NCBI GenBank assembly: GCA_018660825.1 | Contig: JABJJO010000006.1 | Coordinates: forward strand, 1 to 52,119 | Source of the DNA: Planctomycetaceae bacterium | GTDB taxonomy: Bacteria > Planctomycetota > Planctomycetia > Pirellulales > Pirellulaceae | Length of the DNA stretch: 52,119 nt | Direction of reading: 5' to 3' | Made by a program: the position numbers and the translations under genes | The notes under the pieces: generated by a model | The model's input: the letters and a program-made list of their open reading frames with translations, nothing else | What the model was told of the DNA's origin: nothing | The model's database searches: none | Part shown: positions 8,839 through 22,575 of the stretch, one piece after another | Position numbering within the stretch: the first letter of the stretch is position 1 | Layout: each line of letters starts with the position of its first letter

Positions 8839-9004
8839 AAAAACAGAGGGGTAAAGTAAATAGTGTCGCCAAAATGGTAACAATTGCAATCCCTTGGTGC
8901 AATCCCACCAAAAAGCAGGCGGCTAGCGTAGTGGGTTATCGGAAATGGTGTGAGTGTTTATAATGGGCCTTTCGGAATTGGCTCGCAGAGGTTGTGAAGA
9001 CGTT

Positions 9005-9610
9005 ATGATTGCAATTATTGACTATCAAATGGGGAATTTGCGCAGTGTGCAAAAGGCCTTTGAGTCATTTGGCACTGAGGCAGTGATCACGAGTGACGCG
9101 ACAGTATTGCAGCAAGCGGATAAGGTTGTATTGCCGGGTGTGGGTGCGTTTGAAGATGCGATTAAGGAATTGCGTAACCGAGATTTGGTATCGCCAATAT
9201 ACGACTTGACGGCAAGCGGGAAGCCGTTTCTAGGAATTTGCATTGGGCTACAATTGTTGTTTGATGTGAGTTACGAGGGCGGTGAGTACGAAGGTCTAGG
9301 AATCATTGCCGGGGAGGTGCGACGATTTGAAGTTGCAGCGGAATTTAAGGTTCCTCACATGGGCTGGAATCAAGTAAACATTGAGCAAACCTCGCCAATC
9401 CTAAAGGGCATTGATAACAACACGTATTTCTATTTTGTGCATTCCTATTACGTTGTGCCTAGCGACCCGAGTGTTATTTCGCTAACGAGTGATTACGACG
9501 GTACATTTTGTGCCGGCATATGTCGCGACAAGTTATTCGCTACTCAGTTTCATCCGGAAAAGAGCCAACGAGCAGGCCTTAAGGTACTGCAGAATTTTGC
9601 TGAAATATAG
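9005..9610 (+). CDS. hisH: Imidazole glycerol phosphate synthase, glutaminase subunit HisH
   Basis: HisH releases ammonia from glutamine and channels it to HisF in histidine biosynthesis. The nucleophile is C79 in GICIGLQLLF, and the rest of the triad is H183 and E185 in ATQFHPEKS; the protein is 201 residues, as expected. I use ATG 9005 (MIAIIDYQMGN), which matches the family start; upstream in-frame starts would add residues unlike any homologue. hisA follows after 37 bases. The obligate partner gene hisF is not in this window. Confidence 0.95.
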   Translation: MIAIIDYQMGNLRSVQKAFESFGTEAVITSDATVLQQADKVVLPGVGAFEDAIKELRNRDLVSPIYDLTASGKPFLGICIGLQLLFDVSYEGGEYEGLGIIAGEVRRFEVAAEFKVPHMGWNQVNIEQTSPILKGIDNNTYFYFVHSYYVVPSDPSVISLTSDYDGTFCAGICRDKLFATQFHPEKSQRAGLKVLQNFAEI

Positions 9611-14361: not shown

Positions 14362-14754
14362 TTACGATCGGTTGAGCACACGTAATTGAGAACGAACTGC
14401 ATTGACAACTTGTTCACGTTGGTCCAGTTCTTCAACTGAGTTTCCGGGCATAGCGAGTGCGTCACGCAGGTTGCCTTCAAGTTCGTCTTTATTAAGATCT
14501 TCGATCGCGCCGACTCGGTTTGTCAAAATCGAAACGACGTTATCAAGGACTTGAATAAAGCCACCTTCGACATAGTGACTCTCGGTAGTGCCTCCGGTCG
14601 TAAGTGTGAGTGTTCCATTTCCCAGTCGCCCGATCATGGGCGCATGGTCAGTCATTACTCCTTTTTCACCATCAAAAAGAGGAACGATAACCGAATCCGC
14701 ATCCGTTTCGAATGCGGTTTCTTCTGGTGTAACAACAATACAATGAAGTGTCAT
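14362..14754 (-). CDS. atpC: ATP synthase F1 epsilon subunit
   Basis: Epsilon (130 residues) forms part of the central stalk and can inhibit ATP hydrolysis. The N-terminal beta-sandwich is recognisable by VVTPEET, FDGEKGVMTDHAPM and the segment VEGGFIQVLDN. A short helical C-terminal region follows. It is the last gene of the atp operon, starting 3 bases after the atpD stop. Confidence 0.92.
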   Translation of the reverse strand: MTLHCIVVTPEETAFETDADSVIVPLFDGEKGVMTDHAPMIGRLGNGTLTLTTGGTTESHYVEGGFIQVLDNVVSILTNRVGAIEDLNKDELEGNLRDALAMPGNSVEELDQREQVVNAVRSQLRVLNRS

Positions 14755-14757
14755 GGA

Positions 14758-16212
<1,455 letters not shown>

Positions 16213-16285: not shown

Positions 16286-17167
16286 TTAGGTTTTGAGAGC
16301 TTCCACACCACCTATAATTTCCATGATTTCACCAGTAATCTGAGACTGACGAGCTCGGTTATAAGTCATCGACAGATTAGCGATCATTTCATCGGCATTC
16401 TCTGTTGCGCTCTTCATCGCGACCATACGTGCGATCTGTTCACTGACCGCAGCGTCCAAAAAGCATTTAAACAATTTGATGCGGAAGCTAGTAGGCACGA
16501 CTTCCTCAAGGATGCTTTCGGCTGAGGGCATGAATTCATAATCGGTATCCGTCGTACCACCACCTGCGGTATCATCACCTTCAACTTTTCCCAGTGGGAG
16601 TAAGGTTTCGACGACAGCTCGTTGCTTGGAACTTGAGATGAAACGTGTGTAGGCAACGTCGAGGCGATCAAGTTTACCGGCGATGAATTGCTCCATCAGA
16701 GTGTCGGCGATAGGTTTCACTTCATCAAACTTGGGTTGATCGTCGAAATGTGTATAGGATTCATCGGCGGTTAGTCCGCGAAATGATAGGTTGGTAATTC
16801 CACGTTTCCCAGAGATGAGCAGATTTACGTTATCGTACTGTTCGGCGAGTTTTTGATGGTGGTTGATTGTTTCTCGTACGACCGCGCCATTATAACCACC
16901 GCAAAGTCCGCGGTTTCCAGTAAGGACAATCAGAGTTGCATTCTCAGTGGTTTGCCGATCTTCGAGCAACGGGTGTTGTACTTCCGTCCCACTTTTGGCG
17001 AGATTTGTGACAACTTCGGTGATTCGCTGAGTGTACGAAGTCGCCGCTACTGCTCGGTCCATCGCTTTCTTGAATCGCGCCGTTGCGATCAACTCCATCG
17101 TTCGCGTAATTTTGCGAATATTGCGAACCGACTTGCGTCGTTTATCTAATGCCTTGGCATTTGCCAT
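16286..17167 (-). CDS. atpG: ATP synthase F1 gamma subunit
   Basis: Gamma (293 residues) is the rotating central shaft. The N-terminal helix (RKSVRNIRKITRTMELIATA) and the C-terminal helix (SATENADEMIANLSMTYNRAR, ending in ITGEIMEIIGG) are typical, as is the LTGNRGLCGGYN motif. An acidic/Gly-Thr-rich insertion near 195-210 (EGDDTAGGGTTDTD) is a modest lineage feature. It lies between atpA and atpD as usual. Confidence 0.96.
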   Translation of the reverse strand: MANAKALDKRRKSVRNIRKITRTMELIATARFKKAMDRAVAATSYTQRITEVVTNLAKSGTEVQHPLLEDRQTTENATLIVLTGNRGLCGGYNGAVVRETINHHQKLAEQYDNVNLLISGKRGITNLSFRGLTADESYTHFDDQPKFDEVKPIADTLMEQFIAGKLDRLDVAYTRFISSSKQRAVVETLLPLGKVEGDDTAGGGTTDTDYEFMPSAESILEEVVPTSFRIKLFKCFLDAAVSEQIARMVAMKSATENADEMIANLSMTYNRARQSQITGEIMEIIGGVEALKT

Positions 17168-17221: not shown

Positions 17222-18922
17222 CTAATCTTCCTCAGTTGTTTCGGATGCTTCAGCATCGGCTGGGCCGGAGAATGGATCCTCTGTAAAACCGCCGAGTTTG
17301 GTTCCATCGCCGTCGTCATGTGCTTCTTCGTTGTCGCTGCTATCATCTGTTTCCGCAGCTTCGTCAGTTGCAGCGTCCGCAGTTTTGTCAGTTGCAGCGT
17401 CCGCAGTTTCGTCGTTACGATAACTTTCATCCAAAGACTTGAACTCCTTGATCGCCCCGATCAACTCATCCTCATCTCGAATAGATCCCGTTTCGTGAAT
17501 GGCATCCAAAATTTCAGGTTTTTGATCGCGCAAGAACTCTAACAAGTCGTTTTCGAACTGCGGGACATCGGCGATCGCGATATCGTCTAAGTAACCTTTG
17601 GTGCCGGCGAAAATCATACAGACCTGCTCGTTCACAGGTAGAGGTGTATACTGGCCTTGTTTCAGCAGTTCTACCATGCGGTAGCCGCGATCGAGTTGGG
17701 CTTGAGTCGCTGCATCGAGATCGGTACCGAGTTGAGCGAATGCTTCGAGTTCGCGGAAGGCTGCGAGGTCGAGTCGCAAACTACCGGCGACACCTTTCAT
17801 GCCTTTGATTTGAGCAGCACCACCCACTCGAGAAACGGACACGCCAACATTCATAGCGGGTCGAATACCGGAGAAGAACAAGTCAGGTTGTAGATAGATT
17901 TGTCCGTCGGTAATCGAAATCACGTTGGTTGGAATATAGGCGGATACTTCACCTTCAAGTGTTTCAATGATCGGTAATGATGTAAGTGAACCACCACCAA
18001 GGTCTTCGCTTAGTTTCGCAGATCGTTCAAGCAATCGACTGTGACAATAAAAAACGTCACCAGGGAATGCTTCACGCCCAGGAGGACGACGCATCAGCAA
18101 TGATAATTCACGATACGCGTTGGCTTGCTTGGAGAGATCATCATAGACGATCAATGTATGTTCGCCTTTATACATGAAGTATTCGGCCATCGACGTTCCT
18201 GAGTAAGGAGCGATGTATTGCAGTGGAGCAGGGGTACTGGCACCGGATACAATAATGGTGGTGTAGTCCATTGCTCCGTGTTCTTCGAGAATTTGAATCA
18301 CGCCGGCGACCGAGGAATCCTTTTGGCCGATTGCGACGTAGAAGCATTTTACGCCCAAGCCTTTTTGGTTAAGAATCGTATCGATGGCGATTGCCGTCTT
18401 ACCAGTTTTTCGGTCGCCAATGATTAGTTCGCGCTGACCCCGTCCAATCGGTGTCATTGCATCGACTGCTTTGATACCGGTTTGCAGTGGTTCGTTAATA
18501 GGTTGGCGTCCAGCGATACCGGGTGCAATCGCTTCTACCACTCGAGATTCCGTTGAATTGATGGGACCCTTGCCATCGAGAGGGTTACCCAGTGGATCTA
18601 ACACACGGCCCACGACTGCATCGCCGACAGGCACTGATAACAGCGTACCCAGCGCACGGACTTCGTCACCTTCTTTAATTCCAAGATAGTTGCCGAGAAT
18701 AATGATCCCGACACTGTTTTCTTCTAGATTGAAAGCGAGTCCGGTAATTCCGCCAGGGAATTCAACCATTTCCCCAGCGCGAACACCCGCCAGTCCGTAG
18801 ACTCGTGCAATTCCGTCACCGACTTCCAGTACCGTGCCAACCTCTCGTACATCGAGTTGGTTGTCATACTGTTCGATTTCCTGTTTCAAGACGGACGCGA
18901 TTTCGTCAGCGTTGAATTTCAT
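17222..18922 (-). CDS. atpA: ATP synthase F1 alpha subunit with acidic C-terminal extension
   Basis: Alpha binds non-catalytic nucleotides and supplies the arginine finger. Walker A is GDRKTGKT (169-176), and the arginine finger lies in the [11 protein letters not shown] segment. The canonical protein ends near residue 503. Beyond it is a tail of about 63 residues rich in Asp, Glu, Ala and Thr, with two copies of TADAATD, giving 566 residues instead of the usual 500-515. The tail has almost no hydrophobic residues until a short GGFTEDPF segment and is likely disordered. Its role is unknown. Confidence 0.96.
17363..17410. repeat. Two tandem 24-bp copies inside the atpA tail
   Basis: Bases 17363-17386 and 17387-17410 are the same 24-bp unit, differing only in the last base. 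On the minus strand they encode the duplicated TADAATD block of the alpha-subunit tail. The near identity points to a recent in-frame duplication. Confidence 0.9.
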
Positions 18923-19001: not shown

Positions 19002-19643
19002 TCAACCCGCACTGGGACTGTTTGTAAACCGATCTGTTGACAACCGAATTTCTCGAATAGTGTTTTCTCGTACTGTTGTTCGAATCCGTTCGAGTCGGTT
19101 GGCAACACTGCCATCATACACCGTATCTCCGATGCGGATTACCGTCCCTCCGACGAGCGAAGCGTCAACATTTAGTATTAAGTCAACGGTCGCATCGAAT
19201 GCTTTGTTGAGTTTGTCGTGCATCGTGGCGACAGCGGGTTCGTCTAAGCGAGTTGCTGTAGTCACTAAAACCTCAAGGCGTCCTTGGTCTTGGGAGTATT
19301 GTTCCTTGAGACTGGATTGGATGGCGCGGAGACAATTGAGACGACCATGTTGTGAAACGACCTTGAGGAAGTTCAAGAACAAGTCCGAGGCTTTCCCGGT
19401 TAGGGTTTTATCAAGCATCACAACTTTATCGCTGTGAGCAACTCGTGGGGAGCTTAGCATCGCATCGAGTTGTGGCAATTTGTTGAGCACATCGGAAATA
19501 AAAGATTCAAACTCTTCCATTACGTTAGCGGTGCAACCAGCTTGCTGAGTCGCAGCGAGTAGGGAGGCAGCGTAGACTTCTCCGATCGGTTTTTGTTCCG
19601 AATCGAGTACGGTCGTTTGTTTTGGAGGTTCGATTTCAGTCAT
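19002..19643 (-). CDS. atpH: ATP synthase delta subunit (OSCP)
   Basis: Delta (213 residues) links the b-subunit stalk to the top of F1. The N-terminal helical bundle begins after a short tail (YAASLLAATQQAG). The C-terminal region contains VDASLVGGTVIRIGDTVYDGSVANRLERI, recognisable from VGG..IRIGD and DGSV..RL. It is longer than E. coli delta by about 35 residues, mostly at the two ends. The start lies 2 bases after the atpF stop, suggesting translational coupling. Confidence 0.92.
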   Translation of the reverse strand: MTEIEPPKQTTVLDSEQKPIGEVYAASLLAATQQAGCTANVMEEFESFISDVLNKLPQLDAMLSSPRVAHSDKVVMLDKTLTGKASDLFLNFLKVVSQHGRLNCLRAIQSSLKEQYSQDQGRLEVLVTTATRLDEPAVATMHDKLNKAFDATVDLILNVDASLVGGTVIRIGDTVYDGSVANRLERIRTTVRENTIREIRLSTDRFTNSPSAG

Positions 19644-19645
19644 AA

Positions 19646-20383
19646 TTAGTTTTCCGACAGGCTATCAAGTGATTCTTGCACTAGCTTGCTATGATCTTCT
19701 GGATTAAGTTGGCGGCCAACGATTTTGCCGGCGAGTGCAACCGCAATGTCAGTAGATTGTTCCGCGACAGCTTGTAGAGCTGCGTTTTTGGCCAGTTCAA
19801 TTTCGTTAATCGCGCGGGCTTGTTCAGCTTTAGCAGCTTCAGCGGCTTCAGCAACAATGCGGTCTTTAGTTGCTTCAGCGTCGCGTCGACCTTCGGCAAC
19901 AATCTCATTAGCTTCTTGAGCGGCAGCGGCCAGTCGTGCTTCGTATTCTTCGAGTCGCTGCTGGGCTTCGTCCGCACTCTTGCGAGCGTCTTCGATAGCG
20001 CCGATGATTTTTTGTTCACGAGCATCGAGGCCGGCAATAATTGGTTTCCAGGCGACGATTCTAAGTAGCACTACCATTAGAATGAAGACAACGAGTGTAT
20101 AAATCGCGATGTCTTTTTTGAATTCTTCGGCTTTATCGAGGTTTGGTGATGCATTGCCATGAGAATTATCATGCGGTGCATGGGCAGCATGGTCTGCCGT
20201 GTCGTCATGGTTTTGGTCATGATCTGCATGCTCATCATGTCCATGCGATTCGTCGGTGGCATGTTCGTCTTCGTCATGCGCCGCTGCTTGCAAAGTGTTC
20301 GAAACTGTTAATAAAGAAAGAGCGAGTCCGGCACAAAGTGCGAGGCTCCATGCTTGCCAGCGTTGTAACTTCATCGTGTCCAC
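19646..20383 (-). CDS. atpF: ATP synthase Fo b subunit with histidine-rich N-terminal domain
   Basis: Subunit b forms the peripheral stalk. The core is a membrane helix (about 92-110) followed by a long charged coiled coil (113-245). Ahead of it is an extra domain: a signal-peptide-like hydrophobic stretch (11-33), then an Asp/His-rich segment (36-75) with 11 histidines in 40 residues. If the leader works as a signal, this segment faces the periplasmic side. I favour GTG 20383 because GAGGA lies seven bases before it; an ATG three codons later is possible. No c-subunit gene separates it from atpB, from which it is only 122 bases away. Confidence 0.93.
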   Translation of the reverse strand: MDTMKLQRWQAWSLALCAGLALSLLTVSNTLQAAAHDEDEHATDESHGHDEHADHDQNHDDTADHAAHAPHDNSHGNASPNLDKAEEFKKDIAIYTLVVFILMVVLLRIVAWKPIIAGLDAREQKIIGAIEDARKSADEAQQRLEEYEARLAAAAQEANEIVAEGRRDAEATKDRIVAEAAEAAKAEQARAINEIELAKNAALQAVAEQSTDIAVALAGKIVGRQLNPEDHSKLVQESLDSLSEN

Positions 20384-20505
20384 GTGATTTCCTCAATTTT
20401 TGAATCTACTGTTTCGGCTATGGTTGCTGAGAGTAGTTGATTTTGATTAAGTCTTATTTGATTTTACTATAAAGTGATAATTTGTTTTGTCGACATGCTA
20501 ATACC
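20384..20505 (-). other. atpB-atpF junction with no atpE
   Basis: This 122-base gap is where the c-subunit gene normally sits. A c subunit needs about 210-270 bases of coding sequence, so it cannot be here. No hydrophobic reading frame or remnant of one is visible. The end next to atpF carries the GAGGA ribosome-binding site of that gene. Confidence 0.85.
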
Positions 20506-21732
20506 TTAATGGTGATGCATTGCGGCTCCGATAAACAGTGCCGAAAGCAATGTAAACACGTACGCTTGTAGGAAGGCAACAAACAGTTCGAGCAAGCCAA
20601 TACATACGGCGCCAAGAATGGTAATGGGCGCAATCAGGAAGAACAGATTCCCAGCAGCCATGGTAGCCATGCCCATAATCGATAGCAGTACGATATGACC
20701 GGCTACCATGTTGGCCAATAGGCGTACTGCCAATACTCCATGTTTAATAAACAGCCCGGTGATTTCGATGACCCACAGCATCGGTTTAATGAACAGACCG
20801 ATGGGGAAGCTCAAATCCATGCTGGGCAACTGTGCAATCCAAAAACCGACCGGACCATGCATAACGGAACCTGCGATCAATGAGATTAGGAACACTGCTA
20901 CTGCTAACGCAAAAGTCACACCCAGCACGGCGGTTGGTGAGCCGGCCCACGGCACTAAGCCAAACAGGTTGCAGCCGGTGATAAATAGGAACATTGTCCA
21001 GAAAATTGGTGTCAGCGCGTCTGCTTTCTTGTAGGTTAACGGTACGTCACCATCGTGATGCTCGTCGTCATCGTGCCCATGGTGAAAATCAGCATCACTT
21101 CCAATAGAAGGACGGGAGATTTCATCGCGAACGAAAAGCAGGAAAGTTTCCAGGAAATTAGCAAATCGCCCGCGAACGGGTTCGCCGGTTTTTATTTTTT
21201 TAGCTAGTCGTGAAAAGAGTATGAAAATGATGATTGCGACTGCTAACTCAATTATCATAAACTTGGAAATGGCGAAACCAGATTCTGCTTCATGGAGGTT
21301 TCGCAGTTCAGCAAATGGTTGTGGAATTAGGATTTTGCCACTGATGTGATGGTTGTACCATTCTAGGCGTCCATCATATTTCCACTGTTGCGTGAATTCA
21401 TCTGCTCGAGCGATTGCAGTGTTTTCCGCTTGCATGTGTATGTTTTGCGGAATACTACCAAGTTCCTTGGATGCAAAGAACACATCATAGGGCGCTCCAT
21501 GGTTGCCGTCTTGATGACTCCAAGATTCCCATTTTTGGACGGACTGAGCAGCGGATAGCTGCGGTACAGGATGGGCGTTTGCCATTTCTAATGCTTCGAT
21601 GCGTTGAACATCGGGATCGAGCTTCAGCCAGACATTGGGGAAGTCCGATGGTTTTGTCTTGTTGGACGGCAGCAGGAATTTGGGAACTTCAAAAAAGTAA
21701 GCGTCCTTAATATGCAGTATCGGGTTGGCCAT
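20506..21732 (-). CDS. atpB: ATP synthase Fo a subunit with long N-terminal extension
   Basis: Subunit a forms the proton half-channels. The protein (408 residues) is much longer than usual. Residues 1 to about 154 are a soluble extension of unknown fold, and the first membrane helix is at about 155-174. An Asp/His-rich loop (213-229, six histidines) precedes the next helices. The functional core is intact: R337 in AVRLLANM faces the c-ring, Q389 lies in FLQAYVFTLLSALF, and the protein ends in three histidines. If topology is as in E. coli, the extension is periplasmic and the His-rich loop cytoplasmic. Confidence 0.94.
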   Translation of the reverse strand: MANPILHIKDAYFFEVPKFLLPSNKTKPSDFPNVWLKLDPDVQRIEALEMANAHPVPQLSAAQSVQKWESWSHQDGNHGAPYDVFFASKELGSIPQNIHMQAENTAIARADEFTQQWKYDGRLEWYNHHISGKILIPQPFAELRNLHEAESGFAISKFMIIELAVAIIIFILFSRLAKKIKTGEPVRGRFANFLETFLLFVRDEISRPSIGSDADFHHGHDDDEHHDGDVPLTYKKADALTPIFWTMFLFITGCNLFGLVPWAGSPTAVLGVTFALAVAVFLISLIAGSVMHGPVGFWIAQLPSMDLSFPIGLFIKPMLWVIEITGLFIKHGVLAVRLLANMVAGHIVLLSIMGMATMAAGNLFFLIAPITILGAVCIGLLELFVAFLQAYVFTLLSALFIGAAMHHH

Positions 21733-21793: not shown

Positions 21794-22267
21794 TTATCGG
21801 GTTTGAATGGGCTTGTTCGCTTGCACAATTTTTAGTGCAAGTATGGTATCGACGATCAAGGCAATCAAATAATAAATAAGAGTAAACATCAATATTTTGG
21901 CGTCAGCGAGATTCTCGACTAACTGGTGAAGGATAAATCCGCCACCTAAGGGAATGCTCATTCTAATCAACATTCCCATCAACACTGCGTTGATTCCTTG
22001 TTCTGGTTGTTCCGTGCCCCGCACTAGGATGGAAGGAATGATTCCTAGGATGGATCCGACCCAGCAAAGTAGGGCCGCGATTAACACCGCATTAAACCCA
22101 GCTTGTTGGAATTGTTTGTACCCAATCCACGCGATCAACGGAAATACCCCACCTAAAACAAGCGTAATGACTAAAAACGCTTTCCAAGGTTTAAATCTTG
22201 GTTTGGTAACCGATTTGGTGGTCACTGCGGTTTGATCATCTTGTTCAGCATCAACTTGGTCGCTCAT
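21794..22267 (-). CDS. Small membrane protein of the atp operon (AtpI-like, second)
   Basis: The protein (157 residues) has a charged N-terminus (1-30) and four hydrophobic segments (about 31-50, 56-80, 91-112 and 123-147). Its place between the AtpZ/AtpI-like gene and atpB, and the 1-base TAATG overlap with the gene before it, point to a role in ATP synthase assembly, as proposed for AtpI. Sequence similarity alone is too weak to prove the family. It is not a c subunit: it lacks a two-helix hairpin with a central carboxylate. Confidence 0.6.
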   Translation of the reverse strand: MSDQVDAEQDDQTAVTTKSVTKPRFKPWKAFLVITLVLGGVFPLIAWIGYKQFQQAGFNAVLIAALLCWVGSILGIIPSILVRGTEQPEQGINAVLMGMLIRMSIPLGGGFILHQLVENLADAKILMFTLIYYLIALIVDTILALKIVQANKPIQTR

Positions 22268-22575
22268 TACTTGTCGAGCTCCCGTTTGTTTGATTGCTGA
22301 GATTCTTGTTGTTGGGTTGACTCCTTAGTGATTGCCAATAACTGGTAAAACCCCAATATAGGACCAATTATCCAACCGCTAATGTTCCATATGGATGTCC
22401 CAAAATGAGCGTCCAAATAATAACCTGCAATTCCTGGCAGGACCATTGTAATGGAACAACTCATAATTCGTGACACCCACGTGTAGGCTTCCGCTAAGGG
22501 CGATCGCCGAGGAGTCGCTGGGTATTCTGGTTTCTTTAAGGGATGTTTTGGATCAGTCACAGGACTTATCCCCAT
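22267..22575 (-). CDS. AtpZ/AtpI-like ATP synthase accessory protein
   Basis: The protein (102 residues) has two membrane segments (about 37-52 and 62-84). Its GIAGYYLDAHFGTS segment and the following GWIIGPILGFYQL match the pattern of the AtpZ/AtpI family (PF09527), small proteins found at the head of atp operons and linked to c-ring assembly or Mg2+ uptake. It is the first gene of the operon, with a large gene-free region upstream. Confidence 0.75.
   Translation of the reverse strand: MGISPVTDPKHPLKKPEYPATPRRSPLAEAYTWVSRIMSCSITMVLPGIAGYYLDAHFGTSIWNISGWIIGPILGFYQLLAITKESTQQQESQQSNKRELDK

Follow-up and report, generated by a model that had tools for sequence, protein, structure and literature searches.

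The ATP synthase c-subunit gene stands apart from the atp operon, behind a sugar ABC transporter locus, in a small clade of Pirellulaceae

Split atp loci have been described in more than one bacterial lineage. In epsilonproteobacteria the gene of the c subunit is separated from those of both a and b (Koumandou and Kossida 2014, PMC4154653), and in Aquificae the atp genes are dispersed by several breaks, one of them between c and b, with none listed between a and c in the part of the survey on which we draw (PMC4154653). The same part of that survey reports the atp loci of planctomycetes as unsplit (PMC4154653). In the literature that we searched, by title and the start of the abstract and with subscription papers mostly outside its scope, we found no report of a displaced planctomycete atpE. 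Here we describe a planctomycete lineage in which, almost certainly, atpE left the operon for a sugar ABC transporter locus elsewhere in the genome, in an old move common to a small clade.

The window, by which we mean the whole stretch of 52,119 nucleotides that was analysed (positions 1-52119 of contig C143), belongs to G000, a draft assembly of 221 contigs and 4.94 Mb that is 96.6% complete and 2.1% contaminated. Its atp operon occupies the minus strand from 22575 to 14362, and the genes for subunits a, b, delta, alpha, gamma, beta and epsilon follow one another in the usual, Pfam-supported order. At the head of the operon are an atpI-like gene of the ATPase_gene1 type (22267-22575, 102 aa), whose PF09527 match (1.8e-5, 25.1 bits) lies under the cut-off of 26.6 and which is present at the same place in the loci of the clade, and a 157-aa frame (21794-22267) with no Pfam match, relatives of which also fill the place after atpI and before atpB in the clade loci and in some Pirellulaceae outside it. 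Then come atpB for Fo subunit a (20506-21732, 408 aa, PF00119 1.7e-40), atpF for Fo subunit b (19646-20383, 245 aa from a GTG start, PF00430 6e-21), atpH for delta/OSCP (19002-19643, PF00213 2.9e-39), atpA for alpha (17222-18922, 566 aa with an acidic C-terminal tail, PF00006/PF00306/PF02874), atpG for gamma (16286-17167, PF00231 1.1e-89), atpD for beta (14758-16194, PF00006 5.6e-68) and atpC for epsilon (14362-14754, PF02823 5.8e-21), all on the minus strand. What the row lacks is atpE: from the atpB stop to the atpF GTG there are 122 bases (20384-20505, minus strand), in which a whole-assembly PF00137 search found nothing and which carry a Shine-Dalgarno-like GAGG close to their atpF end.

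Both subunit a (20506-21732) and subunit b (19646-20383) contain His/Asp-rich stretches, of which that of a is common to the clade and in part also to G010, while that of b lies near the N-terminus. The acidic tail of alpha takes up about 60 residues at the C-terminal end (17222-17425); alpha matches reach residue 566 in G007 and G012 and end at 484-537 in the full alpha matches of other relatives, some of the matches that end there being cut by contig ends.

Where, then, is the c subunit? When the whole draft was searched in six frames with PF00137 (E <= 0.001), as an earlier note on this DNA had proposed, a single match was returned, on contig C68, and none on C143, the contig of the window. 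The C68 gene, open throughout and read from a GTG, encodes 114 aa, and its whole protein scores 42.5 bits against a PF00137 cut-off of 24. The N-terminus of the protein resembles a leader whose last residues are AFAQ; the protein further has an ARQPE loop flanked, as read from the sequence, by two hydrophobic stretches, and an ALIEGF carboxylate motif. ARQP and ALIEG recur in all ten displaced c proteins, and we take them to be the polar loop of the c subunit and its helix-2 carboxylate motif, respectively. The genome yields one PF00119 match, hence one F-type a subunit, and no match to PF01813 (V-type D), so that the lone c has the a subunit of the window as its partner. In that a subunit Arg337 is invariant and RLLAN-x-VAGH is kept across 11 of 11 aligned sequences, the arginine of this motif being, presumably, the essential one. 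All subunit genes are therefore present in G000, at more than one locus. The earlier note, made from the letters of the window, had described an operon without atpE and with a 122-base atpB-atpF gap, which the coordinates and the Pfam order bear out; its statement that the other F1Fo genes all stand in normal order holds for everything but atpE, with the proviso that the atpI-like match is just under its cut-off; and its remarks that the window contains no hydrophobic two-helix frame and that the gene must be elsewhere agree with the lack of a PF00137 match on C143 and the single match on C68. The unusual complex that it had also considered is not needed, since the c subunit resembles that of relatives and the core of the a subunit is conserved.

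Upstream of atpE on C68, and on the same strand, lie genes for a periplasmic binding protein of sugar type (Peripla_BP_4), an ABC ATPase in which ABC_tran occurs twice, and a permease of the BPD_transp_2 family, which we call rbsB-, rbsA- and rbsC-like by analogy; downstream lies a gene for an MFS protein. Within the genus no c gene has a lower PF00137 score than this one (35.6 bits for the genome-wide match, 42.5 for the whole protein), as might be expected if C68 carried the c gene of a contaminant, or that of an N- or V-type rotary ATPase, and the F-type c were truly missing. This is highly improbable, because the genome encodes a single a subunit and has no match for the V-type D subunit, because the five neighbour proteins on C68 are 89-95% identical to those of the sister species G007 and ordered in the same way, and because the protein and its leader resemble those Pirellulaceae c subunits whose genes adjoin F-type atpB. 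For comparison, the atpB products of G000 and G007 are 92% identical. The C68 locus has a G+C content of 47.7%, against 48.1% for the window, and in tetranucleotide profile it correlates with the window at 0.88, where pieces of the window itself reach 0.92-0.94 and six loci from other genomes 0.43-0.84. Contig C68 is native to the genome of the window, and the PF00119 and PF01813 counts, the native neighbours and the likeness of the c protein led us to rule out both contamination and the c subunit of another rotary ATPase.

The low score had also suggested that the c protein evolves fast, a notion that we dropped. The G000 and G007 proteins are 73% identical over their whole length, and their last 61 positions, compared by eye, differ at 4 only; the divergence is thus that of leader and linker. 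Among the 18 in-operon relatives compared, GTG is the start chosen by the script in 16, and most have similar leaders; since these starts and leaders are alike, the coding sequence of atpE seems to have moved whole.

The clade comprises nine genomes of the window's genus and two of a sister genus (G012 included), 11 in total. A c match was found in eight of the nine and in both sister-genus genomes; the c gene was not found in G003, which is 69% complete and has atpB. Wherever both genes were found (10/10), atpE and atpB lie on separate contigs. Every assembly of the clade is a draft, which leaves a slight chance of a second, unassembled copy of atpE. In the least fragmented of them, G004, a 1,182-kb contig carries atpE, at 288.9 kb, and a 91-kb contig carries atpB, at 45.5-46.8 kb, so that even with the two contigs end to end at least 333 kb would separate the genes. 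The atpB-atpF gap could be read in ten of the 11 clade genomes (G060 is not among them) and measures 70-78 bases in seven, 122 in G000, 121 in G007 and 56-83 in G012, the range in the last depending on the atpF start chosen; no gap among the ten fits a c gene of about 290-345 bases. The new position is equally constant, for in all ten clade genomes with atpE found the gene lies directly behind rbsC, in the same orientation and at a spacing of about 220-253 bases. An SGL (gluconolactonase-like) gene, identified by Pfam on the G002 copy, follows atpE in seven of the nine clade genomes readable downstream (the contig of G005 ends too early), and is not found behind atpE in the sister species G000 (locus L032) and G007 (locus L039).

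These counts bear directly on a simpler account, which the earlier note had raised: that a small local deletion or an assembly collapse removed atpE from this one genome. A draft in 221 contigs leaves room for such an accident. The comparison of related operon orders that the note had proposed finds the short gap again in the ten clade genomes read, with the a and c genes adjacent in nearly all relatives outside the clade. In the ten clade genomes read the gap is too short while the flanking genes are in place, and in 10/10 atpE sits elsewhere, in one conserved context; the relatives' gaps and the conserved atpE site refute deletion and collapse, to which we give practically no credence. The split locus, seen in ten of ten clade genomes with both genes, is inherited and not the artefact of one assembly.

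How far does the split extend? All but a few of the relatives with atpB were recorded as Pirellulaceae and other planctomycetes. Sixty genomes were tested for a and c, 51 of them from outside the window's genus, including the clade member G012. The a-c pair is adjacent in 47 of the 48 non-clade relatives with the genes, and the exception, G016, has on C554 an adjacent pair that is N-type-like, while the two stretches read from it contain no F-type operon. Two draft genomes outside the 48, G047 (95% complete) and G058 (88% complete), gave neither a nor c matches; the atp operon is probably missing from the bin in both, a real loss of the operon being less likely. A single strong ATP-synt_ab match was found in each, lying in a 444-aa frame in G047 and a 460-aa frame in G058, and by our reading both frames look like export ATPases. 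The PF00137 test found a and c adjacent in 13 of 13 further family genomes as well, drawn from 51 non-clade genomes of the family whose atpB match reaches E <= 1e-60 (62 such matches less the 11 of the clade). Among the best 80 atpB loci of named genomes, the c match starts at most 0.4 kb past the end of the atpB match in 78; of the two exceptions, L058 is, to judge by length and coordinates, the contig of the clade member G005, and in L092 the contig stops 28 bases past atpB. The loci of named genomes partly coincide with the other genome set (L058/G005, L071/G029, L060/G114), so these counts are not additive, and gene order was read in a part of the 241 genomes of the family. As far as tested, displaced atpE is confined to the clade.

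In a 95-row atpB tree, in which G060 is not included, the ten displaced rows (nine of the genus and G012) form one clade (100/100). The c-subunit tree groups the eight genus rows together and sets the two sister-genus rows apart on weak forks, with two changes needed; taken alone, it is compatible with one or two origins. The atpB clade at 100/100 and the common insertion point behind rbsC indicate one relocation, and we consider a single event most likely. Orthologues of rbsC were found in nine outgroup genomes, where the genes of at least 90 aa listed downstream differ from those of the clade; no atpE match lies downstream of rbsC and no c match on the rbsC contig in any of the nine. Because these outgroup neighbourhoods lack atpE, its insertion behind rbsC is derived. 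The relocation may have proceeded by duplication and loss of the old copy, or by direct transposition.

The spacer that separates the lone gene from rbsC has conserved features of its own. A TTGAC-N18/19-TAnnnT pair precedes all ten displaced genes, starting 165-199 and ending 135-169 bases before the GTG; base shuffles give it a chance rate of 1-2% per 245-base stretch, the ten cases being related and far from independent. All ten also have a Shine-Dalgarno stretch TAGGAGATA and a GTG start, and the leader peptide, GTG start and Shine-Dalgarno site of the lone atpE resemble those of the in-operon atpE of relatives. A consensus promoter scanner lends the conserved TTGAC site no support, leaving it unmarked in each of the loci that were scanned (L034, L032 and L039); the evidence for the site is its conservation and this chance rate. 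In L032, the locus of G000, it marked in the rbsC-atpE spacer (8991-9058, minus strand) a promoter-like pair, GTGAAA-17-TATATT, about 70-97 bases before atpE (2 such sites found, 1.2 expected), and a weak terminator-like hairpin of 5 pairs about 122-136 bases before atpE (3 found, 1.1 expected). Both are near chance numbers, and the scanner reports neither in L039, the locus of the sister species G007; the hairpin would fall within a leader begun at the TTGAC site. Closer to the gene, about 22-35 bases before atpE and immediately upstream of the Shine-Dalgarno site, a perfect 12-base dyad, ACGTCTAGACGT, occurs in five of the ten loci (L033, L034, L035, L037 and L038), and the others have variants of it, ACCTCTAGACTT in two genomes, ACGTTTTGACGT in two and, by eye, GCGTCTAGACGT in G002. 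The dyad is a possible operator or hairpin. Neither ACGTCTAGACGT nor CTCTAGACTT is found in the window or in nine main-operon stretches, so no common regulation of the lone atpE and the main operon is shown.

Since atpE lies on the same strand as rbsC and about 220-253 bases behind it in ten genomes, it could be co-transcribed with the sugar ABC operon, in which case rotor supply would follow sugar uptake. The SGL gene that comes after atpE in seven of nine genomes suggests that atpE may sit within a sugar-use cluster, and no terminator-like site separates it from rbsC in G006 or G007. We nevertheless regard co-transcription as unlikely, as the TTGAC/TAnnnT pair kept in the spacer in 10/10 suggests an independent start, and as making an essential, abundant subunit depend on a single sugar would presumably carry a cost.

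Each ATP synthase complex needs many copies of the c subunit. We envision that the lone atpE would be transcribed from its own predicted promoter, the TTGAC/TAnnnT pair, and that c would be translated from its strong Shine-Dalgarno site, so that a separate transcription unit would supply the many copies of the ring; the c leader would then be cleaved and the protein assembled with a and b from the main operon. The gene sits between a sugar ABC operon and, in most clade members, a gluconolactonase-like gene. It is tempting, if distinctly doubtful, to suppose that placing atpE under other control lets the clade set its c supply apart from the rest of the complex, possibly tracking sugar use, or by way of the leader of about 130-165 bases and the dyad ACGTCTAGACGT or its variant.

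A c-subunit gene can thus move out of an operon that keeps all its other genes and remain outside it throughout a clade. The clade and its relatives, as natural lineages after and before the move, offer a setting in which to ask how c dosage is set, and those who read genomes may take from the case that a gene absent from its operon need not be absent from the genome. Compared with the canonical planctomycete order atpI-(orf)-atpB-atpE-atpF-atpH-atpA of the relatives read, the clade differs in that atpE is absent between atpB and atpF, whereas the other genes, their order, the c leader, the usual GTG start and the carboxylate motif are alike. As in Aquificae, the operon is broken and the subunits come from several loci, but several breaks are described there and in the clade c alone has left, at least as the consulted part of the survey has it (PMC4154653). 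The split loci of epsilonproteobacteria in that part likewise have the c gene away from a and b (PMC4154653); they belong to another phylum, however, and in the clade a stays beside b. The clade is a further case of the known split that sets c apart, in a phylum whose atp loci that part of the survey reports as unsplit and to which it forms an exception (PMC4154653).
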